The notes under the pieces: generated by a model
Told to the model about the DNA's origin: nothing
What the model saw: only the letters and a program-made list of their open reading frames with translations
The model's database searches: none
Source: Sulfurimicrobium lacus
GTDB lineage: Bacteria > Pseudomonadota > Gammaproteobacteria > Burkholderiales > Sulfuricellaceae
DNA length: 64,000 bases
Reading direction: 5' to 3'
Assembly (NCBI RefSeq): GCF_011764585.1
Contig: NZ_AP022853.1
Span: forward strand, 3,319,501 to 3,383,500
In this document: in pieces, positions 5,106 through 50,650 of the stretch
Layout of the letters: every line of letters begins with the position of its first letter
Numbering within the stretch: position 1 is the stretch's first letter
Made by a program: the position numbers and the translations under genes

Positions 5106-5148
5106 AAAATAGACAGAGGGGATGCACGGCATCCCCTCTGTCTATTTT
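5106..5148. terminator. Perfect bidirectional Rho-independent terminator between cysG and pilQ
   Basis: A 20-bp perfect inverted repeat (5106-5125 and 5129-5148) with a three-base loop. The arms start with AAAATAGACAG and end with CTGTCTATTTT, so each strand has a run of T after the GC-rich core (GGGGATGC/GCATCCCC). It sits between the convergent cysG and pilQ stops and should terminate both transcripts. Confidence 0.93.
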
Positions 5149-31214: not shown

Positions 31215-31227
31215 CACCGGTATGACC

Positions 31228-31274
31228 CTGAACGATTTTCAGCCCTTTCAGCAACATGGCTGAAAATCGTTCAG
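31228..31274 (+). repeat. Hairpin 2 in the pstS-pstC gap
   Basis: A perfect 17-bp inverted repeat: CTGAACGATTTTCAGCC at 31228-31244 and its complement at 31258-31274, with a 13-base loop and no T-run. Together with the hairpin just upstream it makes a tandem structure that should reduce pstCAB expression relative to pstS, or block 3' exonucleases. Confidence 0.75.
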
Positions 31275-31406
31275 TGCCATTTACGGACCAACAATAGCAT
31301 GAATACAACAAATTGCCAGGCAACCGCTAGTGCCGGGGTGCAAACTGGTTATAATCATCGGTTTACAAATCAACCTGCACTTTCTTCAGCCCTACGAAGC
31401 CAAACG

Positions 31407-32369
31407 ATGTCAAAAATACACTCCGCAGCGACACTGAAAAGACAACATCTGTTTGACCAGATTTTCCGTAACACTACGTGGTTATTTGCTTTTCTCGTCT
31501 TCGCGCTGCTTGCCGCCATCATCGGCTCCCTGATTATCGGCAGCATGCCGGCGATCAAGGCATTCGGCTTCAGCTTCCTGTTCAGCTCCGACTGGAACCC
31601 CGTCACCGAAAAATTCGGCGCACTGGTGCCGATCATCGGCACCCTGGTAACCTCGGCCATCGCCCTGTCGATCGGCATCCCAGTCAGCTTCGGCATCGCC
31701 CTGTTCCTCACCGAAATGTCCCCGCCCTGGCTGCGCCGCCCCTTGGGCACGGCGATCGAACTGCTGGCCGGCATTCCCAGCATCATTTACGGTATGTGGG
31801 GTCTGTTCGTGTTCGCCCCGCTGTTCGCCAAGCACGTGCAGCCCGGACTGCAGAGCGCCTTCGGCAGCCTGCCGGGCATCAGCCTGCTGTTCGAAGGCGC
31901 ACCGATGGGCATCGGCATACTGACTGCCGGCATCATCCTGGCCATCATGGTGATTCCCTTCATCGCCGCCGTGATGCGCGACGTGTTCGAGATCGTGCCG
32001 CCCATGCTCAAGGAATCGGCCTACGGCCTCGGCGCCACCACCTGGGAAGTGGTGTGGAACGTGGTTCTCCCCTACACCAAGATCGGCGTGGTCGGCGGCA
32101 TCATGCTCGGCCTCGGCCGCGCGCTGGGCGAAACCATGGCGGTCACTTTCGTCATCGGCAACGCGCACCAGTTGCACGCATCCCTGTTCATGCCCGGCAA
32201 CAGCATCGCCTCGGCGCTGGCCAATGAATTCACCGAAGCCGAGGGCGAACTCTATACCTCGGCGCTGATCGAGCTCGGCCTGATCCTGTTCTTCATCACC
32301 TTCGTCGTGCTGGCTTCCGCCAAGATCCTGCTGATTCAGCTCAAGAAACGCGAAGGCAAGGCTACTTAG
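31407..32369 (+). CDS. pstC: Phosphate ABC transporter permease PstC
   Basis: 320 aa from the ATG at 31407 ([14 protein letters not shown]); the frame is open upstream to 31299 but that part crosses non-conserved leader sequence. Six membrane segments, PstC signatures [13 protein letters not shown] and [17 protein letters not shown], and the permease EAA loop ([21 protein letters not shown]). It forms the inner-membrane channel with PstA. The TAG stop at 32367-32369 lies inside the first arm of the palindromic element that follows. Confidence 0.95.
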
Positions 32370-32636
32370 GGCTCGTTAATGGATAACTTGGACATACGTT
32401 GCTGTGTATTCGGGATGGACGCAAGGCGCGAGACGCGGGCAATGGTTATTCCATTGCCAAGTCTCGCAACGCCGCAGACGCCCGAATACACAGCAACCCT
32501 TCGGGCTGGGGCTATTTTGGCCGCATGCCCGCGTTGCGAGCCGCTTGTTGTGAATGACACAACCGCACGTCTCGCGCCTTGGCCTGCGCCCAAAATAGCC
32601 CCAGCGTATGTCCAAGTTATTCATTAACGAGCCCTA
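32367..32636. repeat. Palindromic cloverleaf-like element A in the pstC-pstA gap
   Basis: About 270 bases enclosed by a 32-nt inverted repeat (32367-32398 and 32605-32636, one mismatch). Inside are two further long hairpin arms. Arm I has a perfect 17-bp basal stem (32398-32414 with 32481-32497), an inner stem GCGAGAC/GTCTCGC (32428-32434, 32461-32467) and an apical stem GGCAATGG/CCATTGCC (32438-32445, 32451-32458). Arm II has a perfect 16-bp stem (32505-32520 with 32590-32605) and an apical GTTGTG/CACAAC. CCCTTCGGG at 32497-32505, a possible UUCG-type mini-hairpin, sits between the arms. The left end contains the pstC stop codon. Same plan as the element at 50375-50650. No coding sequence; likely transcribed with pst. 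Confidence 0.85.
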
Positions 32637-32639
32637 ACC

Positions 32640-33485
32640 ATGATCCCCATTTACACCCGGCGCCGCATCGTCAACGCCTTCAACCTTACCGCCTCCATGC
32701 TGGCCATGGCTTTCGGCCTGTTCTGGCTGACCTGGATTCTGTTTACCCTGTTCCAGAAAGGTCTGGGTGGCATCGGCATTGCCATTTTTACCCAGATGAC
32801 ACCGCCGCCGGGCAGCGCCGGCGGCCTGCTCAACGCCATCGCCGGCAGCGTGGTGATGGCCACACTCGCCACCCTGATCGGCACCCCGATCGGCATCATG
32901 GCCGGCACCTACCTGGCCGAGTTTGGTCAGCGCGGCTGGCTTGCCCCCACCACCCGGTTCATCAACGACATCCTGCTGTCCGCGCCGTCGATCGTGATCG
33001 GCCTCTTTATCTATGCCGTTTATGTCGCCAATGTCGGTCATTTTTCGGGCTGGGCCGGCACGCTGGCGCTGTCGCTCATCGTCATTCCGGTGGTGGTGCG
33101 CACCACCGAGGACATGTTGCGCCTGATACCGGACAGCCTGCGCGAGGCCGCCGCCGCTTTGGGCGCCCCGCAATGGAAAGTCGTAACGCTGGTAACCTGG
33201 CGCGCTTCCAAGGCCGGCATGGTGACAGGCGTATTGCTGGCGATTGCGCGCATCAGCGGCGAAACCGCTCCACTGCTGTTCACCGCACTCAACAATCAAT
33301 TCTGGAGCGCGGACATGAACCGCCCCATGTCCAACTTGCCCGTGGTTATTTTCCAGTTCGCCATGAGCCCCTATGAAGACTGGCAAAAACTGGCCTGGGC
33401 CGGGGCGCTACTGATCACGCTGGGCGTTCTGGGACTCAACATCGCGGCACGCGTCCTGTTCCGCAAAAAATCGTCGTTCAATTGA
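32640..33485 (+). CDS. pstA: Phosphate ABC transporter permease PstA
   Basis: 281 aa, six membrane segments, with PstA signatures [25 protein letters not shown] near 60-85 and the EAA loop [24 protein letters not shown]. Forms the channel with PstC. The ATG is 3 bases after the cloverleaf element, and no good ribosome-binding site is visible outside it, so the element's last arm may influence pstA translation. Confidence 0.95.
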
Positions 33486-33493
33486 AAACTGAG

Positions 33494-34273
33494 ATGAGCA
33501 TGAACCATCCGCACTCGACAGCTCCCAAAATTACCGTCCGCGACCTGAACTTCTACTACGGCAAATATCACGCACTGAAGTCCATCAACATGGACATCCC
33601 GGAGAAGAAGGTCACCGCCTTCATCGGCCCGTCCGGCTGCGGAAAATCCACCCTGCTGCGCACCTTCAACCGCATGTACCAGCTCTACCCAGGACAGGAA
33701 GCCAGGGGGGAGATCATGATGGATGGTGCGAACATTCTCGACAAGAAGCAGGATCTCAACATCCTGCGCGCCAAGATGGGCATGGTATTCCAGAAGCCGA
33801 CCCCCTTTCCGATGTCGATTTTCGACAATGTCGCATTCGGCGTAAAACTCTATGAGAGTCTTAGCCGCCGAGACATGGCAGAGCGGGTGGAATGGGCTTT
33901 GCGCAAGGCGGCGCTGTGGGACGAGGTAAAGGACAAGCTGAATCAGAGCGGCACCAGCCTGTCCGGCGGCCAGCAGCAGCGCCTGTGCATCGCCCGCGGC
34001 ATCGCGGTGAAACCGGAAGTCGTACTGCTCGACGAACCGGCTTCGGCGCTCGACCCGATTTCCACCTCGCGCATCGAAGAACTGATCTTCGAGCTCAAGG
34101 AGGATTACACCATCGCCATCGTCACGCACAACATGCAACAGGCCGCCCGCGTTTCCGACTACACCGCCTACATGTACCTGGGCGAGCTGATCGAGTTCAG
34201 CGACACCGACACCATCTTCACCACGCCCAAACAGAAGGCCACTGAAGATTACATTACTGGAAAGTTTGGTTAA
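33494..34273 (+). CDS. pstB: Phosphate ABC transporter ATP-binding protein PstB
   Basis: 259 aa from the ATG at 33494. A TTG at 33482 overlapping the pstA stop and an ATG at 33500 are alternatives. Walker [14 protein letters not shown]-loop, ABC signature [14 protein letters not shown], Walker [15 protein letters not shown]-loop VTHNMQQ. It powers phosphate import. phoU, which usually follows pstB, is absent here; instead a short ORF repeats its C-terminal codons. Confidence 0.96.
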
Positions 34274-34305
34274 TCCTTCCAGTTATGTAACGGTGAAAGG
34301 CTCAC

Positions 34306-34374
34306 GTGAGCATCGCGAACGTTAAGCCACGCAGTGGCGGCCGCAGCCACTACATTACCGGCAAGTTTGGCTAA
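34306..34374 (+). other. 22-codon ORF ending in a copy of the PstB C-terminus
   Basis: GTG at 34306, with GAAAGG five bases upstream, opens a 22-codon frame ending Y-I-T-G-K-F-G-stop. The last 24 bases (34351-34374) match the last 24 of pstB (34250-34273) at 21 positions, all three differences synonymous. A weaker third copy, AAGTTCGGCTA, follows near 34386. The GTG lies in a perfect 12-base palindrome GCTCACGTGAGC (34300-34311), and GCCAC-GCA-GTGGC (34326-34338) can form a small hairpin. It is either the eroded tail of a duplicated pstB or a small peptide gene; I cannot tell which. Confidence 0.4.
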
Positions 34375-34419
34375 ACATCACTGAGAAGTTCGGCTACCCG
34401 CACCAACCTTTCCGCCTCG

Positions 34420-34460
34420 AACGCCCGCTCCAATAATCTCTGGAGCGGGCGTTTTGTTTT
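34420..34460 (+). terminator. Rho-independent terminator of the pst operon
   Basis: AACGCCCGCTCCA (34420-34432), loop, TGGAGCGGGCGTT (34441-34453), followed by TTGTTTTT. Strong GC-rich stem with a T-tract, ending the pst transcript before the receptor gene. Confidence 0.92.
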
Positions 34461-34468
34461 TGCGCGGA

Positions 34469-34502
34469 CGGTAACAATACCGTCACACGCCGATGGCAGA
34501 AT
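34469..34502 (+). promoter_or_regulatory. Possible Pho box upstream of the chemoreceptor gene
   Basis: The 19 bases at 34469-34487 match the PhoB consensus at 13 positions, with half-sites GGTAACA and CGTCACA 11 bases apart. CAGAAT at 34497-34502 sits nine bases after, the same geometry as at the other two sites. The same stretch can also be read as a poor sigma-28 promoter (TAAC, 13 bases, GCCGATGG, two bases shorter than the usual spacer), so assignment is uncertain. Confidence 0.45.
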
Positions 34503-34523
34503 CGCCACCTCTCACATCACGTT

Positions 34524-36170
34524 ATGTATTACCAAATGATCAGAAAACCAGGTATCAAAGCCAGCCTGTTTGCCGGCGCCATCTTCAGCGCAGTGATCCT
34601 GTTTCTGCTGGCGACGGAAAATCTGCTGGTGCTGCAAAAGAGCAATTCAGCCATGACCGCCGTATACGAGCAATCCGTTGTACCGTCATCCCTGCTGCTC
34701 GATATGGAGCGCAAGCTGACCGCAACGCGCTTCAATATGGCAGCCGTCATGTTCGACAAAGTCACGTTCGACCAGGCGGCCAGGCAACTGGCCGAGCTCA
34801 AATCCAGTCTGCCGGCGCTCTGGAACGAGTTCAAGACGCGCAAGGGCAGCGGCATGTCCGCGGAAGAAGCGAGCCTGATGGCAAGCGTTGACGCGCAAAT
34901 GAAATCGCTCGATTCGTTCTACAAATTCCTTGAAGCATCCCATCAGGCAAACGACAAAACCATGGTGCGCTCTGTCCTCGACGACGACTGGCCTCCGCTC
35001 GAAAGCGGCATCCTGAACCCGGTCAGCAAGCTGATTGCCCTGCAAAATGAAAAAATTCAGGCTGAACATGCCGCAAGCGTGGCCACTGCGGAGAAGATGC
35101 GTTTGATCGTCATTCTGACGCTGATTGTCGGCGCGATTGTCGCCATCGCATCCACCACCGTCACCACCCTGCAGGTCCGCAGCATGGACATGGGCATGAA
35201 ATACTTGCAACAAGCCTTGGCGCGAGTCGCGTCCGGCGACCTGCAGACGCGTGTGGCTTTTGCCCACAACAATGAATTCGGCGAGATGGCCCGCCATCTG
35301 GAAAGCACGCTGGAGAGCCTGCGCAACATGGTTGCGGGCATGAAGCAGGCGGCCCGCACCGTCAGCGAGGAAGCCGTCCTGCTGGCGGATACCGTTACCC
35401 ACGTCGAACAGAGTTCGCGCAGTCAGTCGCTTGCTGCCGCCGAAACGGCCGCTGCGGTGCAACAAATCGCCGTGAGCATCGAACAGGTCACCCAGAATGC
35501 GCGCGAATCGCTGTCCATTTCGAATGAAGGCAGCGCCCTGTGCGAAAACGGCAAGCAAGTCGCCACCCAGGCGGCAAACGAGATGGCGGGGATATCCCAA
35601 GCCGTAACCGAGTCATCGCGCCTGATTGCCGCACTCAACAATCGCTCGAGCGAAATCAGCAAGATCACCCTGGTGATCAAGGATATCGCGGAACAAACCA
35701 ATCTGCTGGCTCTCAACGCAGCCATCGAAGCGGCGCGCGCCGGCGAACAGGGGCGCGGGTTTGCGGTGGTGGCCGACGAAGTCAGGAAACTGGCAGAGCG
35801 CACCACCAAAGCCACGGCGGAAATCAACCTCATGGTCGGCGACATTCAGGCCGACACGCGAGAGTCCATGACGGTGATGGAAAAAAGCAGAATCAAGGTA
35901 AAAGAAGGTGTGTCGCTGGCCAATCAGGCAACACATTCGCTATCGGCAATCGATTCCGGCGCCAAGCGCACAGCGCAAAGCATCAGCGAAATCGCCAGCG
36001 CAACCAACGAACAGCACAGCGCCAGCCAAGATATCGCGCGTAACGTGGAAAGGATTTCCACCATGGCCGAAGACAATTCGCACTCGATCAGCAATTTGTC
36101 GGGCGCCGTCCACAAGCTCAAGGAACTGGCGCGCAACTTCGAGCTGACGGTGGCGCAGTTCCAGGCCTGA
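34524..36170 (+). CDS. Methyl-accepting chemotaxis protein with four-helix-bundle-type sensor domain
   Basis: 548 aa. TM1 about 13-35, periplasmic helical sensor region about 36-188 of the 4HB_MCP type, TM2 about 189-212, HAMP about 213-265, and the cytoplasmic signalling domain with the conserved tip [28 protein letters not shown] (written here in part) near 391. No C-terminal CheR/CheB-tethering pentapeptide. Related over its sensor domain to the receptor at 53215. Its position after the pst operon and the Pho-like site upstream suggest a link to phosphate limitation; the ligand is unknown. Confidence 0.93.
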
Positions 36171-36177
36171 GCGATCG

Positions 36178-37536
36178 CTAGCGGGCGGCGGATTCGCGCA
36201 CTACGGAAGCAAGCGTCTCGGCCCATTGACGCACATCCGCTTCCGACTGGCCCTCGACCATCACCCGCAACAGGGGTTCGGTGCCGGAAGGCCGCAACAG
36301 CACGCGCCCCGTACCATCCAAAGCGCGCTCCGCTTGTGAAACCGCTGTCTGTACCGCAGCACTGGCGCGGAAATCGAAACCTTTGGCGATCGGCACATTG
36401 ATCAGAATCTGCGGATAGAGCACCAACTCCTGTATGAACTCGGACAGGCTCTTGCCGCTCAGTTTAAGTGCTTCCAGGACCTGGAGGGCAGAGATGATGC
36501 CGTCCCCTGTTGTATGCCGGTCAAGGCACAGGATGTGTCCGGAATTTTCGCCGCCCAGGTACCAGCCTCGCTCCTGGATAAGTTCGAGCACATAGCGATC
36601 GCCCACTTTGGCGCGCGCAAAGGGGATGCCCAGCTTTGCCAGTGCGTGCTCCATGGCCAGGTTGGTCATCAGCGTGCCCACTACCCCGCCTTTGAGAAAG
36701 CCTTGCTCCTGGCGAAATTTGGCAATCGCGTAAATTAACTGGTCGCCGTCAAAAAGCTGGCCGGAAGCATCCACCATCATCACCCGGTCACCGTCGCCAT
36801 CCAGCGCGATGCCGATATCGGCGCCATATTGCTGAACCGCCGCTACCAAGGCGTCCGGCTTGGTCGAGCCACAATCCCGGTTGATATTCAGGCCGTCCGG
36901 CTGGTTTCCAACCGCAATCACCTCTGCGCCCAGCTCATGGAACACTGGGGGAGCGACGTGATAAGTTGCACCATTGGCGCAATCCACCACGATCTTCATG
37001 CCGCGCAAATCGAGTTCGTTGGGAAAGGAACTCTTGCAGAATTCGATATAGCGCCCGGCGGCATCGTTAACCCGCCTGGCTTTACCCAATTGGGCCGAAG
37101 GCATGGTGCACAGCGGTTTTTCAAGCTCATCCTCGATAGCCTGCTCGGTTGCGTCCGACAGTTTGTTGCCGCTGGCGGAGAAAAATTTGATGCCGTTATC
37201 TTCAAAGGGATTATGCGACGCTGAAATCACAACCCCGGCCTGAGCACGCAGGGCACGGGTAAGGTAAGCCACCCCGGGTGTCGGCATCGGACCGAGCAGC
37301 AGCACGTCCACGCCGGCGGCGGACAACCCGGCCTCCAGAGCCGATTCCAGCATGTAACCGGAGATCCGCGTGTCCTTGCCGATCAGCACGCTGGGGCGCT
37401 CCCCCTTGCCGCTGCTACCCTGCGCCGCCAGCACGCGCCCCGCCGCGTTGCCCAGCCGCATCACGAAGTCCGGCGTAATCGGAGCCTCGCCCACTTTGCC
37501 GCGCACACCATCGGTACCGAAATATTTTCTGTTCAT
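36178..37536 (-). CDS. glmM: Phosphoglucosamine mutase
   Basis: 452 aa, normal length. Active-site phosphoserine loop [17 protein letters not shown] near 100, metal-binding DGDGDR (about 243-248), sugar loop GGENSGH and phosphate-binding [14 protein letters not shown] near the C-terminus. It interconverts glucosamine-6- and glucosamine-1-phosphate for UDP-GlcNAc synthesis. It overlaps folP by 4 bases and is last in rlmE-ftsH-folP-glmM, the same order as in E. coli. Confidence 0.97.
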
Positions 37537-38357
37537 CTTGCCCCCTCGACTGCAGTGACGATCTGCAGTGCTTGTCTGGTTTCTTTCACATCGTGTACGC
37601 GCAAAATTTTAGCGCCCTTCATGGCAGAAATCACTGCCGCGACAACGCTTGGCACCATTCTTTCCCCTGCGTCCAGGCCGGTCAGTGCGCCCAGCATGGA
37701 TTTGCGCGACAGGCCGGCCAGCAGCGGCACCCCAAGTGACTGGAACGCATCGAGCTGGCGCAACAAGGCCAGGTTGTGCTCCAGCGCCTTGCCAAAACCG
37801 AAACCGGGGTCGATCACGATGCGTTCGCGGGCGATGCCGGCCTGTTCCGCTGCCTCGATGCGGGCGGCAAGAAACGCCTTCACTTCCGTCACCACATTCT
37901 GATACATAGGATCGTGCTGCATGGTGCGCGGCTCGCCCTGCATGTGCATCAGGCACACCCCCACCCCGGAATCCGCCACCGCTTGCAACGCACCCGGACT
38001 TTGCAGCGCATTGACATCGTTGATCATGTCCGCCCCGGCCTGTATCGCGGCGCGCATCACTTCGGGCTTCAAGGTATCGACCGAAAGCGGCAAGCCGCAA
38101 TGCGCCAGGCCCTCGAGTACCGGCACAATGCGCTCCAGTTCCTCTGCCGCGCAAACCGATTGCGCGCCTGGGCGGGTCGATTCGCCGCCGATATCGAGCA
38201 TGTCGGCACCGTGCTCGATGAGTCGCAGCGCATGGGCAATGGCTTGTTCGGTGCTATGGAACTTGCCGCCATCCGAAAAGGAATCGGGCGTGACGTTGAC
38301 GATGCCCATGACAAGAGGGCGATCCAGCGAAAGATTGAAGCGTCCGCAACGAAGCAT
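37533..38357 (-). CDS. folP: Dihydropteroate synthase
   Basis: 274 aa from the ATG at 38357 ([31 protein letters not shown]). The frame continues upstream to 38405, but that part runs through a repeat hairpin and is not family-like. [36 protein letters not shown]-like and the C-terminal RVHDV motifs are intact. It joins p-aminobenzoate to the pterin in folate synthesis. No clear ribosome-binding site precedes the chosen start. Confidence 0.95.
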
Positions 38358-38368
38358 ATTGGAGAGGC

Positions 38369-38412
38369 GTGAGAAGTGAGGGGCAAGGAGAGGCACTCCC
38401 CTCACCCCTCAC
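38369..38412. repeat. GTGAGGG-type inverted repeat between folP and ftsH
   Basis: GTGAGAAGTGAGGGG (38369-38383) faces CCCCTCACCCCTCAC (38398-38412), an inverted repeat with two mismatches and a 14-base spacer. It uses the same GTGAGG word as the larger repeat between carA and carB. It lies inside an operon, 6 bases from the ftsH stop. Confidence 0.6.
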
Positions 38413-38417
38413 CGATA

Positions 38418-40310
<1,893 letters not shown>

Positions 40311-40381
40311 GCTTGCTCCTTAGCAACCAGCATCTATAAATTAATTGAATTTTAAACTCATTGGTCCGCGTACGGGGTGAT

Positions 40382-41026
40382 TTATTTGCTGCCGGACTGC
40401 AGCCCCTTGCCCAGCATGTACACCTCGGTGCTTCGGTCGCGCGACGCCTTCGGCTTGCGCACCACCACCTGCGCAAAATGCGTGCGCATCTCGCGCACAT
40501 ATTCGTCGAAACCCTCGCCCTGGAAAGCTTTGACCACGAAGACGCCGCCGGGTTTCAGGTGTTGTGCGGCAAATTCCAGCGCCAGCTCGGCCAGATGCAT
40601 GCTGCGCGCCTGGTCTGACACGCCGATGCCACTGATGTTGGGTGCGATATCGGAAATAACAAGGTCCACGTCCCGCCCGTGCAGCGCCTCCTCGAGCTGG
40701 GCCAGCGCGGTGTCTTCACGGAAATCGCCCTGAATGAAAACGGCACCGTGCACCGGATCCATGGGCAGAATATCGAAGGCGACCAGCATGCCGCCACGCG
40801 AAGGATCGCCGGCGCCGATTTTTTTCGCAGCTACCTGGGTCCATCCACCGGGGGCAGCCCCCAGGTCCACCACCGTCATACCGGGCTTGAGCAGATGATC
40901 GCGTTCGTCCAGCTCCATCAGCTTGTAGGCCGCGCGGGAACGGTAACCCTCTCTCTTCGCCAGTTGCACATAGGGATCGTTGACGTGCTCGCGCATCCAG
41001 CCTTTGCTGGTTCGGGTTCGTTTCAT
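40382..41026 (-). CDS. rlmE: 23S rRNA 2'-O-ribose U2552 methyltransferase RlmE (FtsJ/RrmJ)
   Basis: 214 aa. N-terminal [30 protein letters not shown] with the catalytic Lys, SAM-binding [13 protein letters not shown], then [12 protein letters not shown] and [13 protein letters not shown] supply the K-D-K-E catalytic tetrad. Methylates U2552 in the large ribosomal subunit. Upstream of ftsH in the same direction, divergent from yhbY. Confidence 0.96.
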
Positions 41027-41069
41027 GGGCTTTCTAGGTTAAACTGTCGCATTTTTTGGACCATCAAGT

Positions 41070-41369
41070 ATGTTGAATCTCACCCCCGGCCAACGCCGTT
41101 TTCTGCGCGCCCAGGCCCATTCGCTCAGCCCCGTGGTTCTCATCGGCGATGCCGGACTGACGCCTGGCGTCATGAAAGAAATAGAGCACAGCCTGAACAT
41201 CCACGAGCTGCTCAAGATCAAAGTGGCTGGCGGCGACCGCGAACAGCGGGAAAGCATGCTGGCGGAAATCTGCGCCACGCTGGAAGCCGCACCGGTACAG
41301 CATATCGGCAAAACCCTGGTGATTTACAAGCCGGCACAAAAACCCCGGATCGTATTGCCGAAAGATTAG
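41070..41369 (+). CDS. yhbY: YhbY-type CRM-domain RNA-binding protein
   Basis: 99 aa, a single CRM domain: LTPGQRRFLRAQAHSLSPVVLIGDAGLT with the GDAG (GxxG-like) loop, then VMKEIEHSLNIHELLKIKV. Associates with pre-50S ribosomal subunits in E. coli. The neighbours greA, rlmE and ftsH are the canonical ones. The stop overlaps the convergent membrane-protein gene by 4 bases. Confidence 0.95.
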   Translation: MLNLTPGQRRFLRAQAHSLSPVVLIGDAGLTPGVMKEIEHSLNIHELLKIKVAGGDREQRESMLAEICATLEAAPVQHIGKTLVIYKPAQKPRIVLPKD

Positions 41370-41821
41370 CCTTTTCGCGGTGCCAGGACCAGCACCAGTC
41401 CGAGTACGCTCTGCACCAGATAAACGATGCTGGAAATGCCGTGCCAGCGCGCGAAGCGATCGCGGAACATGCTTTCCATCACGCCCTTGGGCAGCGCCTG
41501 CTCCTTGAGCCCCTCCATAATCGGCTGAATGCCGAAATGCCCGGCAACGGCCAGCAGCAGCATCACCAATGCGGCCCAGAAGAATCCCTGCTTCAGCGCG
41601 GTGCTGCCGTAGCTCGCCAGACGGTGGATCAGCAGGTAAAAGCCGCATGCCATGCCGATGTAGGCGACGAGCGTGAACATCTTGCCCGCCAGCATTCCCG
41701 CCATGGTTTTATCCGCAAGCGCAGAAAAGAGCACCGGGGCGGAAAGGTAGCCGATGGCCCAGAGCGCTCCCACCCACAGAGTGACGGCTACCAGTGCAAA
41801 CTTATCGGCGAAGCGGTTCAT
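41366..41821 (-). CDS. Small integral membrane protein, DUF4149-like
   Basis: 151 aa with four hydrophobic segments (about 7-27, 45-67, 80-100, 127-147). LWVGALWAIGYLSAPVLF at the N-terminus and the FARWHGISSIVYLVQ motif near 125 resemble the DUF4149 family common beside greA in betaproteobacteria. No known function. The ATG overlaps the greA stop (TGATG), so translation is coupled. Confidence 0.85.
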   Translation of the reverse strand: MNRFADKFALVAVTLWVGALWAIGYLSAPVLFSALADKTMAGMLAGKMFTLVAYIGMACGFYLLIHRLASYGSTALKQGFFWAALVMLLLAVAGHFGIQPIMEGLKEQALPKGVMESMFRDRFARWHGISSIVYLVQSVLGLVLVLAPRKG

Positions 41822-42297
41822 CAGATGTACTTCACGTCCAGAATTTCATATTCGCGAATGCCGCCCGGCGCCTGGACTTCCGCCACGTCGCCGGCCGATT
41901 TGCCGATCAGGGCGCGCGCGATCGGCGAACCGATGGAAATCTTGCCCTGCTTGATATCGGCTTCGTCATCGCCGACGATCTGGTAAGTCACCTCGTCGCC
42001 ACTTTCCAGGTCTTCGAGATCCACAGTGGACGCGAACACGCAACGACCTTCCGCGTCGAGCAGCTTGGGATCGATAATCTGCGCGTTGGATAGCTTGCCT
42101 TCGACCTCGGCGATACGCCCTTCGACGAAGCTCTGGCGCTCCTTGGCCGCATCGTATTCGGCGTTTTCCGAAAGATCCCCGTGGGAACGGGCTTCAGCGA
42201 TCGCGGCAATGACGCTCGGCCGCTCCACGTTTTTCAGGTTCTGCAATTCTGCGCGCAACAACTCGGCACCCAGGACAGTCAGGGGAACTTTGCTCAT
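41821..42297 (-). CDS. greA: Transcription elongation factor GreA
   Basis: 158 aa. N-terminal coiled coil with the acidic tip ([24 protein letters not shown]) that reaches into the RNA polymerase secondary channel to trigger cleavage of backtracked RNA, and a C-terminal FKBP-like domain ([24 protein letters not shown]). Follows carB on the same strand, the usual order. Confidence 0.97.
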
Positions 42298-42373
42298 TAC
42301 TCTATTTCCTTGAAATCAAATAACAATGCGGATCGGGTCACCCCAATCCGCATAATTCATAGCTGGCGCCAAC

Positions 42374-45300
42374 TCAATTCAGGCGTTTATGCAATTCCTG
42401 CAGGCCATAAACCTGCAATTCTTTCATGTACTGCATGCCGACACAGGCTGCGCGCGCACCGGACATGGTGGTGTAGTAGGTAATCCGCTGCTGCAGTGTG
42501 GCATGGCGAATGGCATAGGAGTCCTGCACCGCCCGCTTGTCTTCCACAGTGTTGATGATCAGGCTGATCTCGCCGTTCTTGATCAGGTCGACGATGTGCG
42601 GACGCCCTTCATGCACCTTGTTCACCGCCGTAACCGGAATACCGGCTGCCTGGATCGCGGCCGCCGTGCCGCGCGTGGCAAACAGGCCGAAGCCCAGGTT
42701 GACCAGGTTGCGGGCGATGTCCACTACCTTTTCCTTGTCGCCACTCTTGACGCTGATCAGCGCCTTACCGCCGGACGGCAACTTGACGCTCGCCGCCATC
42801 TGGGACTTGAGGAAAGCTTCGGCGAAGGTGCTGCCGACGCCCATCACCTCGCCGGTGGATTTCATTTCCGGGCCGAGAATCGGGTCCACGCCGGGGAACT
42901 TGATGAAGGGGAATACCGCTTCCTTCACCGAATAGTAGGGCGGGATCACTTCGCGGGTGATGCCCTGCTGCTTGAGCGTCTGGCCCACCATGCAACGCGC
43001 AGCGATTTTCGCCAGCGGCAGGCCGGTAGCCTTGGAAACGAACGGCACGGTACGCGAGGCGCGCGGGTTCACTTCCAGCACGAAAACCGTCTCGCCCTGA
43101 ATGGCGAACTGGACGTTCATCAGCCCCACCACGTTGAGGCCCTTGGCCATCGCCACGGTCTGGCGGCGTAACTCGTCCTGCAAGGCCTGGCTCAGGTTGT
43201 AGGGCGGCAGAGAACAGGCGGAATCGCCGGAATGCACCCCAGCCTCTTCGATGTGTTCCATGATGCCGCCGATCAGCACGTCGGTGCCGTCGCAGATGGC
43301 ATCGACGTCCACTTCGGTGGCGTCGTTGAGGAAGCGGTCGAGCAGCACTGGCGAATCGTTCGAAACTTTCACCGCCTCGCGCATGTAGCGCTCCAGGTCG
43401 GACTGCTCATGCACGATTTCCATCGCCCGCCCGCCCAGCACGTAGGAGGGGCGCACCACCAGCGGGTAGCCGATTTCCACTGCAGCGGCAAGTGCCTGCG
43501 CTTCGGTACGCGCGGTACGGTTGGGCGGCTGCCTGAGCTTGAGATCGTGCAGCAACTTCTGGAAGCGCTCGCGATCTTCCGCTGCGTCGATCATGTCCGG
43601 CGTGGTGCCGACAATGGCCACGCCGTTGGCTTCCAGGTCGCGTGCCAGCTTGAGCGGCGTCTGGCCGCCATACTGCACGATCACGCCGTAGGGCTGCTCG
43701 ACATGGACGATCTCCAGCACGTCTTCCAGCGTCAGCGGCTCGAAGTACAGACGGTCGGAAGTATCGTAGTCGGTGGACACGGTTTCCGGGTTGCAATTGA
43801 CCATGATGGTCTCGTAACCGTCCTCGCGCATCGCCAGCGCGGCATGCACGCAGCAATAATCGAACTCGATGCCCTGACCGATGCGGTTCGGCCCGCCGCC
43901 CAGCACCATGATTTTCTTCTTGTCGGTGGGCGCGGCCTCGCACTCTTCCTCGTAGCTCGAGTACATATAGGCGGTGTGGGTGGCGAATTCGGCGGCACAG
44001 GTGTCCACGCGCTTGTACACCGGACGCACGCCCAGAGCCTGGCGCGTTTTGCGCACTTCATGCTGGGTCACGCCGAGCAGCGTGGCCAGACGACTGTCGG
44101 AAAAGCCGCTGCGTTTGAAGCGGCGTATTTCGTCGCGGCTCAAATCAGCCAGCTTGCGGCCGGACAGCGATTGCTCCTGCTTGATCAGGTCTTCCATTTG
44201 CGCCAGGAACCACGGGTCGACATGCGTCAACTTGTGGATCTGCTCCTGGCTCATGCCGCAGCGCATGGCGTCGGCGATGTACCAGATGCGTTCCGGGCCG
44301 GGTTCGCTCAGTTCGGTTTCCAGCGTGCCCATGTCGGTGGTTTTTTCATCCAGCCCGTCGTTGCCGGTTTCCAGCCCGCGCAAGGCTTTCTGCAGCGATT
44401 CCTGGAAGGTGCGGCCGATCGCCATCACCTCGCCCACCGATTTCATCTGGGTGGTCAGCCGGCTGTTGGCCTGGGGAAATTTTTCGAAGGCGAAACGCGG
44501 GATCTTGGTCACCACGTAATCGATGCTGGGCTCGAAAGATGCCGGCGTGGCGCCGCCGGTGATGTCGTTCTGCAATTCATCCAGGGTATAGCCGACCGCC
44601 AGTTTCGCCGCGATCTTGGCGATCGGGAAGCCGGTGGCCTTGGATGCCAGCGCCGAGGAACGCGACACGCGCGGATTCATCTCGATCAGCACCATGCGCC
44701 CGTCCTTGGGGTTGATGCCGAACTGCACGTTGGAGCCGCCGGTTTCCACGCCGATTTCGCGCAACACTGCCAGGGAGGCATTGCGCATGATCTGGTATTC
44801 GCGGTCGGTCAGGGTCTGAGCCGGCGCGACGGTGATGGAATCGCCGGTGTGCACGCCCATGGCATCGAAATTCTCGATCGAGCAGATGATGATGCAGTTG
44901 TCCTTGGTATCCCGCACCACCTCCATCTCGTATTCTTTCCAGCCGATCAGCGATTCCTCGATCAGCAGTTCGCGCGTCGGCGAAGCTTCCAGGCCGCGTT
45001 CGCAAATGGCGACGAACTCTTCCTTGTTGTAGGCGATGCCGCCACCGGAACCGCCCATGGTGAAGGAAGGGCGGATGATGGTGGGATAGCCGACCATGGC
45101 CTGCACCTGGAAAGCTTCTTCCATGCTGTGCGCAATCGCAGCACGCGGACAGGCGAGGCCGATTTTTTCCATCGCCTTCTTGAATTTTTCCCGGTCCTCG
45201 GCCTTGTCGATGGCCTCCTTGGTGGCACCGATCATGTGCACGCCGTACTTTTCCAGCACGCCATGCTTGGCCAGGTCGAGCGCGCAATTGAGCGCGGTCT

Positions 45301-45577
45301 GTCCACCCATGGTGGGCAGCAGTGCGTCGGGGCGCTCTTTCTCGATGATTTTTTCCACCACCTGCCAGGTAATCGGCTCGATGTAGGTCGCATCGGCCAT
45401 TTCCGGGTCGGTCATGATGGTGGCCGGATTGGAGTTGACCAGGATGACGCGGAAGCCCTCTTCGCGCAAAGCCTTGCACGCCTGGGCGCCGGAATAGTCG
45501 AATTCACAAGCCTGACCGATGACGATCGGGCCCGCGCCGATGATGAGGATGCTATGGATGTCGGTACGTTTTGGCAT
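42374..45577 (-). CDS. carB: Carbamoyl-phosphate synthase large subunit
   Basis: 1067 aa, full length. Two homologous ATP-grasp halves: the first with [17 protein letters not shown], the second with [15 protein letters not shown] near 560, and a C-terminal allosteric methylglyoxal-synthase-like domain. It makes carbamoyl phosphate for arginine and pyrimidine synthesis. carA is just upstream across a GTGAGGA repeat block. The repeats immediately precede the ATG, where only a weak AAAGAA could serve as ribosome-binding site. Confidence 0.97.
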
Positions 45578-45584
45578 TTCTTTG

Positions 45585-45653
45585 GTGAGGGGTGAGGAGT
45601 GAGGAGTGAGGCGAAAGTCCGCGCCCTACTCCTCACTCCTCACCCCTCACTCC

Positions 45654-45657
<4 letters not shown>
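45585..45657. repeat. GTGAGGA heptad repeats forming an inverted repeat between carA and carB
   Basis: About 73 bases filling the carA-carB gap. Left part: consecutive seven-base words of the type GTGAGGG/GTGAGGA; right part: the complementary CTCCTCA/CCCCTCA words. Positions 45585-45604 pair perfectly with 45631-45650. The carA TGA stop is inside the right part. The transcript should fold into a long stem between the two cistrons. The heptad length matches the short repeats that expand by slippage; similar words occur at 38369-38412. Confidence 0.8.
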
Positions 45658-46784
<1,127 letters not shown>

Positions 46785-46834
46785 AAGAACTCTCCGAATC
46801 CGAACCCGGGCGGCTGGATCGCCCCCCGGACATG

Positions 46835-46865
46835 AAAAGCGGGACAGGTTTGTCGCCCATCCCGC
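46835..46865 (-). terminator. Terminator-like hairpin in the carAB leader (possible attenuator)
   Basis: On the carA message strand a 10-bp stem (46865-46856 with 46848-46839, GCGGGATGGG/CCTGTCCCGC, two G-U pairs) has a 7-base loop CGACAAA and is followed directly by TTTT (46838-46835). It lies 11 to 41 bases after the predicted start site and about 50 bases before the carA ATG, so it could stop transcription before carAB. Confidence 0.6.
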
Positions 46866-46882
46866 CCCATTAATTTTGCGAA

Positions 46883-46911
46883 ATTATACTGTAATCTTGG
46901 GCTTATATCAA
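46883..46911 (-). promoter_or_regulatory. Sigma-70 promoter of carAB
   Basis: Minus-strand TTGATA (46911-46906), 17-base spacer, perfect TATAAT (46888-46883). Predicted transcription start near 46876, giving a leader of about 92 bases before the carA ATG. Confidence 0.85.
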
Positions 46912-46940
46912 CGACCCCGGCGCAGCGCGCCGTGATCGTT

Positions 46941-46986
46941 CCCCTCACCCCTGCCCTCTCCCACCCTGCGGGAGAGGGGGACGAGG
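46941..46986. repeat. REP-like GC-rich palindrome between carA and dapB
   Basis: CCCTCTCCC (46954-46962) pairs with GGGAGAGGG (46970-46978), flanked by CCCCTCACCCC and GACGAGG. This is the look of the dispersed palindromes commonly found between genes in proteobacterial genomes. It is downstream of dapB and may also terminate its transcript. One copy in the window. Confidence 0.6.
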
Positions 46987-47007
46987 CATCGCTGGCGCGA
47001 ATCTTTT

Positions 47008-48197
<1,190 letters not shown>

Positions 48198-48207
48198 GTA
48201 CGGGCTT

Positions 48208-48237
48208 TTGTTGTTCGTAAGAGACTTATATTATGAT
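48208..48237 (+). promoter_or_regulatory. Candidate fur promoter
   Basis: TTGTTG (48208-48213), 18-base spacer, TATGAT (48232-48237), about 30 bases before the fur ATG. No convincing Fur box overlaps it. Confidence 0.45.
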
Positions 48238-48266
48238 AGCCCAATTTGACGCTTCGAGCACACAGC

Positions 48267-48692
48267 ATGAGTCAGCCCAATGATCTGAAAAACGTCGGCC
48301 TCAAGGCGACCCTGCCACGCCTGAGGATTCTCAACCTGTTCGAGACCAGCGAAGTGCGCCACCTCGCGGCGGAAGACGTGTACCGCATTCTGCTTGCCGA
48401 GGGGGTGGACGTGGGGCTGGCGACGGTTTACCGCGTGTTGACCCAGTTCGAGGCGGCCGGCCTGCTGGTGCGCCACCACTTCGAAAGCGGCAAGGCGATA
48501 TTCGAGCTCAACCAGGGGCGCCACCACGACCATCTGGTGTGCCTGCAGTGCGGCATGGTAGAAGAATTCTACGACGCGGAAATCGAACGGCGCCAGGAGC
48601 AGATCGCCAAGGAACGGGGCTTCCGCATCCAGGAACACTCGCTTTATCTTTACGCCGACTGCCTCAAGACCGATTGCCCGCACAAAACTTGA
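48267..48692 (+). CDS. fur: Ferric uptake regulator Fur
   Basis: 141 aa from the ATG at 48267 ([19 protein letters not shown]); an in-frame start at 48246 is unlikely. N-terminal winged helix with the [17 protein letters not shown] recognition region, HHDHLVC-x2-C metal motif, and a second C-x4-C pair at the C-terminus (DCLKTDCPH). Iron-responsive repressor of iron acquisition and other genes. Confidence 0.97.
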
Positions 48693-48696
48693 ATTA

Positions 48697-48728
48697 GGGC
48701 GTGTTAACACACCCTTTAGGACACGCCC
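48697..48728. terminator. Possible bidirectional terminator between fur and recN
   Basis: GGGCGTGT (48697-48704) pairs with ACACGCCC (48721-48728). The inner GTTAAC and AACACACCC can form a shorter alternative stem. It lies between the convergent fur and recN stops and overlaps the recN TAA. The T-tract is weak, so a modest call. Confidence 0.45.
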
Positions 48729-50374
48729 AGCATCTCTGCCGCATGACGGCGCGTCGTCGAGGTAATTTCGACACCGCCCAGCATGCGCGCAATTTCTTCG
48801 ATGCGCTGTTCGTGTTCCAGCAGCGAAATCTGACTTAACACCTGACCGTCCCTGACGCACTTGGCCACCTGCCAGTGCTGGTCGCCCAGCGCCGCCACCT
48901 GGGGCAGGTGGGTAATGCACAGCACCTGGCGCTCGGCACCCAGCCCGCGCAGCATTTTTCCCACCACTTCGGCCACGCCGCCGCCGATGCCCACGTCCAC
49001 CTCGTCGAATATCAGTGTCGGCACCGCCGCCACCTTGCTGGTCATGACCTGGATCGCCAGGCTGATACGCGACAGTTCGCCGCCGGAAGCCACCTTGGCG
49101 AGGGGTTTTGCCGCCAGACTGGAGTGGGCGCTCACAAGGAGCTCGACCCGCTCCAGACCGTGGGCATCGCCCTCCTCCAGAACATGCAGCGCCACCTCGA
49201 AGCATCCGCCCGCCATGGCCAGTTGCTGCATCGCCTCACTCACCCGCGCGCTTAGCTCTTGGGCGGCGCGCCGCCTTTCCTCGCTCAGGATGGCAGCCTT
49301 GGCCAGATAGACCTCACGAGCCGCGTCCTCCTGCTGCCGCAGCTCTGCAGCGGAGCCCATGTGCTGCAGCCCCGCGAGGCGCTCTTCACGCTCCTGCAAC
49401 AAAGCCGGCAAGGCTTCCGGCATCACCCGGTACTTGCGCGCCATGCCGTGCAGCGCCTCGATGCGCTGCTCGACTTCGCGCAGCCGCTCGGGGTCCAGAT
49501 CCAGACGTTGCGCATAATGCCGCAGGCTGTAGGCGGCCTCCTGCATCTGCGCGGCCGACGAATCGAGAATAGCCAGCGGCTCGCCCAAGGCGGCATCGTA
49601 CTCCAGCACCTTGTTGAGCCGCCCGATCAGGCCGTTGAGTTGCGACAGCAGCGCCAGATCGCCGTCGGCGAGCAGCTCGACGCCGAACTGGGCGCTTTCC
49701 AGCAGGCTGGCGGCATGCGCAAGCCGGGCATGCTCCGCTTGCAGTTCCGGCCATTCCTCCGGGCCAAGATCGAGCCCCTGCAGTTCGCGCACCTGCCATT
49801 CCAGCTGTTCCAGTTCCGCCAGCGCCGCCACCGAGTCTTTTTCCCAAGCCACGCGACGCTCGCGCAAACCCTGCCAGCCACGGTAGTCCAGGGCCACTTC
49901 GCGCGCCAGCGCGACCTGCCCGGCGTAAGCGTCCAGCAGGTCGCGCTGCAGCGCGGGCTTAAGCAGGGATTGATGGGCGTGCTGGCCGTGGATGTCCACC
50001 AGGTATTCGCCTGCTTCACGCATCTGTTGCAGGGTTACGCCATTGCCGTTGACGAAGGCGCGCGAACGGCCCGTGGCATCGATGCTGCGGCGCATCAGGC
50101 ACACCCCGGGGTCGCCGGCGAGATCGTTTTCATCCAGCCAGGACTGCAACTGGGGCAGCTTGCCGATATCGAATTCCGCCGCCAGCTCGGCGCGCTCGCA
50201 GCCGGCGCGCACCACACCGGCATCGCCCCGCTCGCCCAGCACCAGGGCCAGCGCGTCGATCAGGATGGATTTCCCGGCGCCGGTTTCGCCGGTCAGCACG
50301 GTAAATCCGGAACTGAATTCCAGCTCCAGCCGGTCAACGATGACGAAATCGCGGATGCTGAGAGAAAGGAGCAT
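48716..50374 (-). CDS. recN: DNA repair protein RecN
   Basis: 552 aa from the ATG at 50374 (MLLSLSIRDFVIVDRLEL); upstream in-frame codons belong to the palindromic element. SMC-like ATPase: Walker A LTGETGAGKSILIDAL near 30, long central coiled coil (about 160-360), signature ASGGELSRISLAIQ and Walker B LIFDEVDVGIGG. Acts in double-strand-break repair. Its likely ribosome-binding site AGAGG, about 8 bases upstream, is the end of the cloverleaf element's outer arm. Confidence 0.96.
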   Translation of the reverse strand: MLLSLSIRDFVIVDRLELEFSSGFTVLTGETGAGKSILIDALALVLGERGDAGVVRAGCERAELAAEFDIGKLPQLQSWLDENDLAGDPGVCLMRRSIDATGRSRAFVNGNGVTLQQMREAGEYLVDIHGQHAHQSLLKPALQRDLLDAYAGQVALAREVALDYRGWQGLRERRVAWEKDSVAALAELEQLEWQVRELQGLDLGPEEWPELQAEHARLAHAASLLESAQFGVELLADGDLALLSQLNGLIGRLNKVLEYDAALGEPLAILDSSAAQMQEAAYSLRHYAQRLDLDPERLREVEQRIEALHGMARKYRVMPEALPALLQEREERLAGLQHMGSAAELRQQEDAAREVYLAKAAILSEERRRAAQELSARVSEAMQQLAMAGGCFEVALHVLEEGDAHGLERVELLVSAHSSLAAKPLAKVASGGELSRISLAIQVMTSKVAAVPTLIFDEVDVGIGGGVAEVVGKMLRGLGAERQVLCITHLPQVAALGDQHWQVAKCVRDGQVLSQISLLEHEQRIEEIARMLGGVEITSTTRRHAAEMLGVS

Positions 50375-50650
50375 TAGGGAACCTCTGATTAAGTCAAACG
50401 CTGTCGCGACGGGGTATTGCGGGATGCCAGGCAAGGAAAGAGGCGCGCCGTGCAGTCATTCTGCACAAGTGACTCTTGACGCCGCATGGCGCCCGCAATA
50501 CCCCGTCCCTTCGGGTTACATCGAAAACAGGCTTGCCCCGCGTTGCGCTCCTTGGCGTCGTAGGCTCGGCTACGACCTGCGTCGCGCGCCTTGCTCAAGC
50601 CTGTTTTCGATGTAACGCGATCCGCGTTTGACTTAATCAGAGGTTCCTTA
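50375..50650. repeat. Palindromic cloverleaf-like element B in the nadK-recN gap
   Basis: About 276 bases enclosed by an inverted repeat (50375-50401 with 50624-50650, one mismatch; 24 bp perfect at 50378-50401/50624-50647). Arm I: perfect 16-bp stem (50408-50423 with 50492-50507), apical GTGCAG/CTGCAC with loop TCATT (50450-50466). CCCTTCGGG at 50507-50515 sits at the junction. Arm II: perfect 20-bp stem (50516-50535 with 50596-50615), apical GTCGTAG/CTACGAC (50557-50563, 50570-50576). Same plan and length as the element at 32367-32636, but the stem sequences differ. The nadK stop codon (50648-50650) is inside the right arm and the left arm touches the recN start. Confidence 0.85.

Follow-up and report, generated by a model that had tools for sequence, protein, structure and literature searches.

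Two hairpin-rich elements between ordinary genes

The window analysed here, a 64,000-nt stretch of the Sulfurimicrobium lacus genome, occupies positions 3319501-3383500 on a single contig of 3,826,324 bases and contains two hairpin-rich elements, A and B, each lying between co-directional genes (Table 1). Element A is flanked by two BPD_transp_1 permease genes, which we infer to be pstC-like and pstA-like, and the TAG stop codon of the gene upstream of it lies at its left end. Element B is flanked by an NAD-kinase gene and by a recN-like gene, whose product has a RecF/RecN/SMC N-terminal domain; the TAA stop codon of the NAD-kinase gene appears as TTA at the right end of B. Our analysis indicates, with a probability of about 70%, that A and B belong to a superfamily of non-coding, twin-hairpin miniature inverted-repeat transposable elements (MITEs) that are mobilised by IS5-type transposases and whose basal pairing is kept at the DNA level. 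The superfamily itself is real and large, and at least three of its end types are IS5-like.

Both elements lie where the first-pass annotation of the window had placed them and fold as it had described. Folded as single-stranded DNA, A reaches -104.7 kcal/mol (z -16.3) and B -103.4 kcal/mol (z -13.3), and 0 of 200 dinucleotide shuffles did as well in either case. An independent inverted-repeat search recovered the outer stems (36 nt at 94% in A and 35 nt at 91% in B) and the stems of arm I (17 and 16 nt, both at 100%) and arm II (25 nt at 92% and 25 nt at 96%). The stems had been called perfectly paired, which is correct for arm I of both elements, but the outer stem of A contains a G-T mismatch at GGATAA/TTATTC. 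The five-base apical loops ending in ATT were found as TTATT and TCATT in the two window elements, and CCCTTCGGG occupies the centre of both, between the arms. The short patches of sequence reported as common to A and B are also present; they are not scattered, but together make up the core of one hairpin module, of which each element carries two copies, one per strand. Since A and its reverse complement are 68% identical over the full length, arms I and II are inverted copies of this module.

Table 1. Positions of elements A and B and of their parts within the window
Feature	Position	Strand	Basis or context
Element A, 270 bp	32367..32636	+	between pstC-like and pstA-like genes
A left terminal inverted repeat, starts TTAGGGCTCGTTAATGGATAACTTGGACATAC	32366..32397	+	independent inverted-repeat search
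A arm I, hairpin module on + strand	32398..32497	+	model R1, 105.2 bits
A linker, within CCCTTCGGG	32498..32504	.	sequence
A arm II, hairpin module on - strand	32505..32605	-	model R1, 50.8 bits
A right terminal inverted repeat	32606..32637	+	independent inverted-repeat search
Element B, 276 bp	50375..50650	+	between NAD-kinase and recN-like genes, both on - strand
B left terminal inverted repeat, includes GGAACCTCTGATTAAGTC	50375..50401	+	independent inverted-repeat search
B arm I	50408..50507	+	model R1 match on locus L023, 45.7 bits
B linker, within CCCTTCGGG	50508..50514	.	sequence
B arm II	50515..50616	-	model R1, 44.7 bits
B right terminal inverted repeat	50624..50650	+	independent inverted-repeat search

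Other repeats were observed elsewhere in the window. A 23-nt inverted repeat (91%) lies at 31222-31280, immediately upstream of the pstC-like gene; GTGAGGGGTGAGGAG is densely repeated at 45585-45657, where an inverted copy is also present; and a 20-nt perfect inverted repeat with a 3-nt loop at 5106-5148 is perhaps a transcription terminator.

A conserved core on freely varying stems

The module consists of a conserved core, TGCAAGGCGCG...hairpin...GCAACGCCGCAG, which contains asymmetric internal loops, and of a basal stem in which the sequence is free and complementarity is kept. Twenty-four arms, each exactly 100 nt long, were aligned by MAFFT with zero gaps. In alignment A2, the 24 rows of which were hand-picked from 35 arms that have a 56-nt core and 13 or more of the 16 basal pairs in Watson-Crick form, 96.5% of the cells are paired, compared with 70.9% after shuffling and 33-42% after sliding; the first of these values is partly due to construction, because the rows had been preselected for basal pairing. 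Covariation in the 24 arms amounts to 210 cells changed on both sides (62.9 in the shuffled control). All 16 basal pairs vary on both sides, and six of the seven pairs of core helix 2 are invariant, neither of which is due to the selection of rows.

Pairing was also found in stretches selected by the core motif alone. Among the matches listed, the flanks of 63 of 104 such stretches form 12 or more of 16 Watson-Crick pairs at the expected offsets, whereas none passes at control offsets and 3.6% pass with shuffled partners. These 104 stretches are the ones among loci L059-L175 that have 45 bases on each side, taken without any structural choice; the remaining 41, with fewer than 12 pairs, comprise among others chance matches and arms whose register differs. 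Whole-arm model scoring was run on 70 and 75 chosen loci. Wherever two arms are adjacent in the sample, they share one inverted arrangement (63 of 63 pairs).

Copies in the host genome and distribution among genomes

The host genome contains six full copies of A (87-100% identity) and 14 relatives of B, namely 11 full copies (88-100%), one insert-bearing copy at 80% and a further two whose arm II contains an insert. A count of gene context (10 tandem, 7 divergent and 3 convergent of 20) was discarded as unreliable, as it scores window B as divergent despite its co-directional neighbours. Three further families, C, D and E, were identified. Families C (two copies, L007 and L008) and D (three copies, L012-L014) differ from A and B in their ends and stems but follow the same plan, and family E comprises ten elements of approximately 250 bp (L221, L226 and L305-L312) that have a single detected arm with the same core and are bounded by CCTAGAAACCTC...GAGGTTTCTAGG. 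Covariance model R1 detected 48 arms in this genome, the worst with an E-value of 2.7e-4. The elements are thus dispersed and multicopy, with terminal repeats of approximately 30 nt and no transposase gene, and at approximately 270 bp they are too short to encode a transposase.

Two kinds of variant accompany these families. A hairpin-rich insert of approximately 50 bp, GCGAGCGGCTTTGCCGCCGCTC, occurs at a near-identical position in arm II of B copies L034, L035 and L036 (1067845, 2438426 and 1743916). At L043, L049, L257, L277, L313 and L314, armless hairpins of approximately 45-70 bp consist of the two terminal repeats only and are probably deletion products or minimal elements.

The covariance-model search that had been suggested for these elements returned many copies with strong covariation. 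At an E-value of 0.01 or less, model R1 detected arms in 40 of the 61 genomes in the relatives set: every one of the 22 from the host's family (the host among them) and 18 of the 39 from other families of the order. In a sample of 274 genomes of the class, 66 (again including the host) contained arms at 1e-5 or less. A core-motif scan of genome records yielded at least 117 stretches. Among the matches listed, records of Omnitrophota, Acidobacteriota and Planctomycetota score 31-50 bits with the whole-arm model (L077, L085, L099, L107, L109, L119 and L136); these records are metagenome bins that had been preselected by the core motif. No match to the whole of B was found on plasmids, and the whole of A gave two partial matches only. 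A 56-nt stretch of a Pseudomonas aeruginosa plasmid (NZ_CP017294.1, 8708-8763) is 86% identical to part of A arm I. Carriage by phages was considered, but only 3 of the 19 stretches with enough flank, among 21 found in a viral scan, pair at the expected offsets, and the scan was not used as evidence for it.

Empty sites and ends shared with insertion sequences

A search of 13 genomes for the pst junction that surrounds A in the host gave matches in 12. Each of these matches runs across the junction and differs from the query by no more than 12 bases in length, and the 270-base insert is therefore absent from this site in those genomes. Direct reading of genome G004 gave ACTTAAACCATG where the host has ACTTAG, the element and then CTAACCATG, and direct reading of G006 likewise showed that the element is absent there. 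The earlier reading of A and B as elements with the same fold and unrelated stem sequences, and as possibly mobile, is supported.

The ends of three types were matched to insertion sequences (ISs) of the IS5 family. B-type ends match those of a 1170-bp IS in the genus mate G005, which has TTAG on both sides and an open 318-aa transposase frame that scores 323.7 bits with the NCBIfam model IS5_4 (cut-off 140). The end of this IS, GGAACCCCTGAACAAGTC, agrees with window B (GGAACCTCTGATTAAGTC) at 15 of 18 positions and with B copy L032 at 17 of 18. ISs in G014 also have ends that resemble the B type. C-type ends match, over 20 of 20 aligned nucleotides (30-nt query, E 0.1), the very end of 832-bp ISs on Polaromonas JS666 and Variovorax SRS16 plasmids that are annotated as IS5, and, for the Comamonadaceae type, a composite end shares 95.5% identity over 22 nt (E 0.9) with the terminus of an 881-bp Undibacterium KW1 IS. 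Model IS5_3 is matched by both the Polaromonas and the Undibacterium transposase. These weak plasmid matches are credible because their positions coincide exactly with the paired ends of IS5-family elements. The first-pass annotation named no known family with this layout; Rfam has no match, and three end types match IS5-family ISs.

None of seven IS5-family loci examined, four of which have matching ends, contains an arm; the sole match (E 0.12) lies outside the IS. Flanking 4-bp repeats were found in some copies, CTAA at L049 and L036 and CTAG at L032, and CTAAG was found at L155 and L162. Other candidates were rejected. The Shewanella plasmid match H15 adjoins an IS5-family gene, but no paired ends were detected there, and the PF13340 proteins of G028 (nine), G055 (two) and G007 (one) have no strong terminal repeats and none is element-like. 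The nine PF13340 (DUF4096) matches of G028 (L365 and L368-L375) occur in that genome alongside 11 arm matches.

Probable upkeep of basal-stem pairing at the DNA level

Selection on pairing at the RNA level would be expected to tolerate G-U pairs but not A-C mismatches. In a count restricted to arms with 12 or more of 16 pairs (172 distinct arms of 223 matches), the 2752 basal pairs comprise 2553 Watson-Crick pairs, 67 G-T, 53 A-C and 79 others. In a count by class under the same threshold (163 distinct arms of 211 after removal of those at the same place), G-T and A-C numbered 13 and 14 in arm I and 13 and 18 in arm II. Within families, counting only positions whose consensus pair is Watson-Crick, the numbers were 6 and 7 in the six A copies and 14 and 18 in 11 B copies. 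The basal stems thus have no clear preference for G-T. Because G-T and A-C occur in similar numbers, we hold that the basal stems are kept paired at the DNA level. Over all pairs of copies within a family, which are not independent of each other, both-sided differences are far in excess of expectation: 115 in A (14.8 expected under independence) and 201 in B (29.5 expected).

In copy L036, the interior of arm I is inverted between intact stems. Homogenisation of arms and inversion of the spacer are described, in PMC8604942 and PMC8794818, as footprints of template switching between the arms of an inverted repeat, and a mutational mechanism of this kind could therefore keep the pairing. Template switching is the likeliest means of upkeep, although it is not proven. 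The argument that covariation by itself marks selection on structure is accordingly not supported for these stems.

The first-pass annotation had also considered that the elements might function as RNA. The very stable fold, the location of both A and B between co-directional genes and the stable stem-loops that MITE transcripts are described as forming (in the review PMC10969869) would suit a structured RNA, such as an element acting in mRNA processing, stability or attenuation or a small RNA, held under selection for RNA pairing. The basal counts (67 G-T and 53 A-C) and the inverted arm I interior of L036 argue against it: stem covariation with tolerance of G-U would be expected, and an excess of G-T was found in core helix 3 only. 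The window also has no Rfam match at the gathering threshold; four sub-threshold matches around the elements (E 0.12 to 4.6) are not credible. We regard an RNA function as highly improbable, and the least probable of the explanations weighed here.

Proposed mechanism and alternative explanations

We infer mobilisation in trans, template switching and a functional core. Under this model, the element would be cut at its ends by an IS5-type transposase supplied in trans and would then insert at short, TA-containing targets; the ends of both window copies overlap stop codons. Inside the ends lie two inverted copies of one arm (a single detected arm in family E). The basal stem drifts freely in sequence while remaining complementary, most likely because one side is repaired or replicated with the other as template (template switching), and purifying selection would act on the core.

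Several observations pull against this explanation. As regards mobility, the plasmid BLAST end matches are weak when taken alone, and rows H9 and H22 of the same listings were rejected because their positions are not IS ends. No IS with A-type ends was found by a pattern search of eight genomes or by blastn against plasmids, although some single ends lie at contig edges; the check for a partner of the D type was a motif check in IS loci only, and the E type lay outside the search. The host genome has no matching transposase (two PF01609 matches with other ends and no PF13340 match) and no relative of the G005 transposase, and G056 and G045, with 64 and 33 arm matches, also lack PF01609, PF13340 and G005-transposase relatives. 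The transposase missing from the host could have disappeared, could be present only intermittently or could belong to another type than those searched. The target duplications in the window are not clean (TTAG/CTAA for A and TTAG/TTAA for B). As regards pairing, G-T is the commoner mismatch in arms for which no partner was detected (37, compared with 21 A-C). Between nearest neighbours, both-sided changes are few, from 2 to 9 in A and from 0 to 3 in B, with none in 4 of the 11 B copies, and one-sided differences in B outnumber both-sided ones (441 versus 201). Pure homogenisation leaves the persistence of the asymmetric internal loops unexplained. Finally, core helix 3, beside the CAA loop, has 35 G-T and 2 A-C in 56 arms.

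This last bias is seen on each arm's own strand (G-T and A-C 24 and 3 in arm I, 10 and 1 in arm II, and 23 and 3 in unassigned arms), in a count for which 86 of 211 arms were unusable and the filter favoured G-T. Because arms I and II are on opposite strands, no single transcript can account for it in both; a folded single strand of DNA can, as can a directional motif with a conserved G. The inference of selection on structure, which does not follow for the basal stems, may hold for part of the core. Folded single-stranded DNA acts in this way in attC sites, REP hairpins and IS200/IS605 ends, and the arms could similarly be recognition sites for a recombinase, nuclease or replication factor, a role additional to that of the IS5-type ends. 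A core common to arms with unrelated stems, the own-strand bias in helix 3 and the uniform inverted arrangement of adjacent arms all speak for such a site. However, the bias is reversed in helix 2 (1 G-T and 6 A-C) and in the apical stem (6 and 12), the excess in helix 3 partly reflects columns with a conserved G and the shared ancestry of the rows as well as the filter just mentioned, and no enzyme has been tied to the arms. We consider this explanation unlikely. A more specific and equally doubtful form of the idea is that the arm is a portable single-stranded-DNA hairpin signal, carried as a twin cassette in IS5-type MITEs, by which a hairpin-recognising enzyme of the host or of a mobile element boosts copying or survival and to which unlike ends have been fitted repeatedly.

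It is also conceivable that the elements are passive debris, with stems kept perfect purely by mutation through template switching and a core kept by common descent only. The similar numbers of G-T and A-C in the stems, the spacer inversion of L036 and the several hosts without a detected partner transposase are compatible with this. On the other hand, the asymmetric internal loops have not been erased, and matches of 31-50 bits occur in Omnitrophota, Acidobacteriota and Planctomycetota, among the matches listed and in metagenome bins for which the motif was the selection criterion. Purely passive persistence seems to us as improbable as a recognition site. We therefore favour IS5-mobilised, twin-hairpin MITEs with basal stems kept paired at the DNA level.

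Significance and comparison with known systems

These elements amount to an extensive natural collection of long DNA hairpins whose pairing persists despite sequence drift, present in 66 of the 274 class genomes sampled. They make it possible to test whether strong covariation can arise without an RNA function, which would be a warning for covariation-based RNA discovery, and to ask how a hairpin core comes to be conserved when the transposon ends around it differ. They also give boundaries to repeats that lie between ordinary genes, at stop codons in both window copies. No published name for the elements was recognised in the open-access literature; ISfinder was outside the comparison, and a name may therefore exist.

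With integron attC sites, the elements share a resemblance only. REP/BIME sequences with RAYT transposases are similarly composed of imperfect hairpins in inverted pairs, whereas the present arms are 100 nt long and lie within IS5-like terminal repeats. We know of no cross-genus, multi-arm plan with free stem sequence among Correia/NEMIS, ERIC, RUP or QMITE elements. Terminal inverted repeats and strong hairpins are features of Correia/NEMIS, ERIC and RUP and, according to PMC10969869, of QMITE2, and they are found here as well. Hairpins maintained by template switching share the homogenised arms and the inverted spacer, but in PMC8794818 and PMC8604942 they are reported for RNA genes and yeast coding genes and not for the upkeep of mobile elements. 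The elements resemble IS5-derived MITEs in being short, non-coding and multicopy, in the IS5-type matches of three end types, in their TA-containing targets and in the empty sites found in relatives. Unlike IS5-derived MITEs, they carry two inverted, covarying hairpin modules that are absent from the ISs tested and that recur under several unlike ends.

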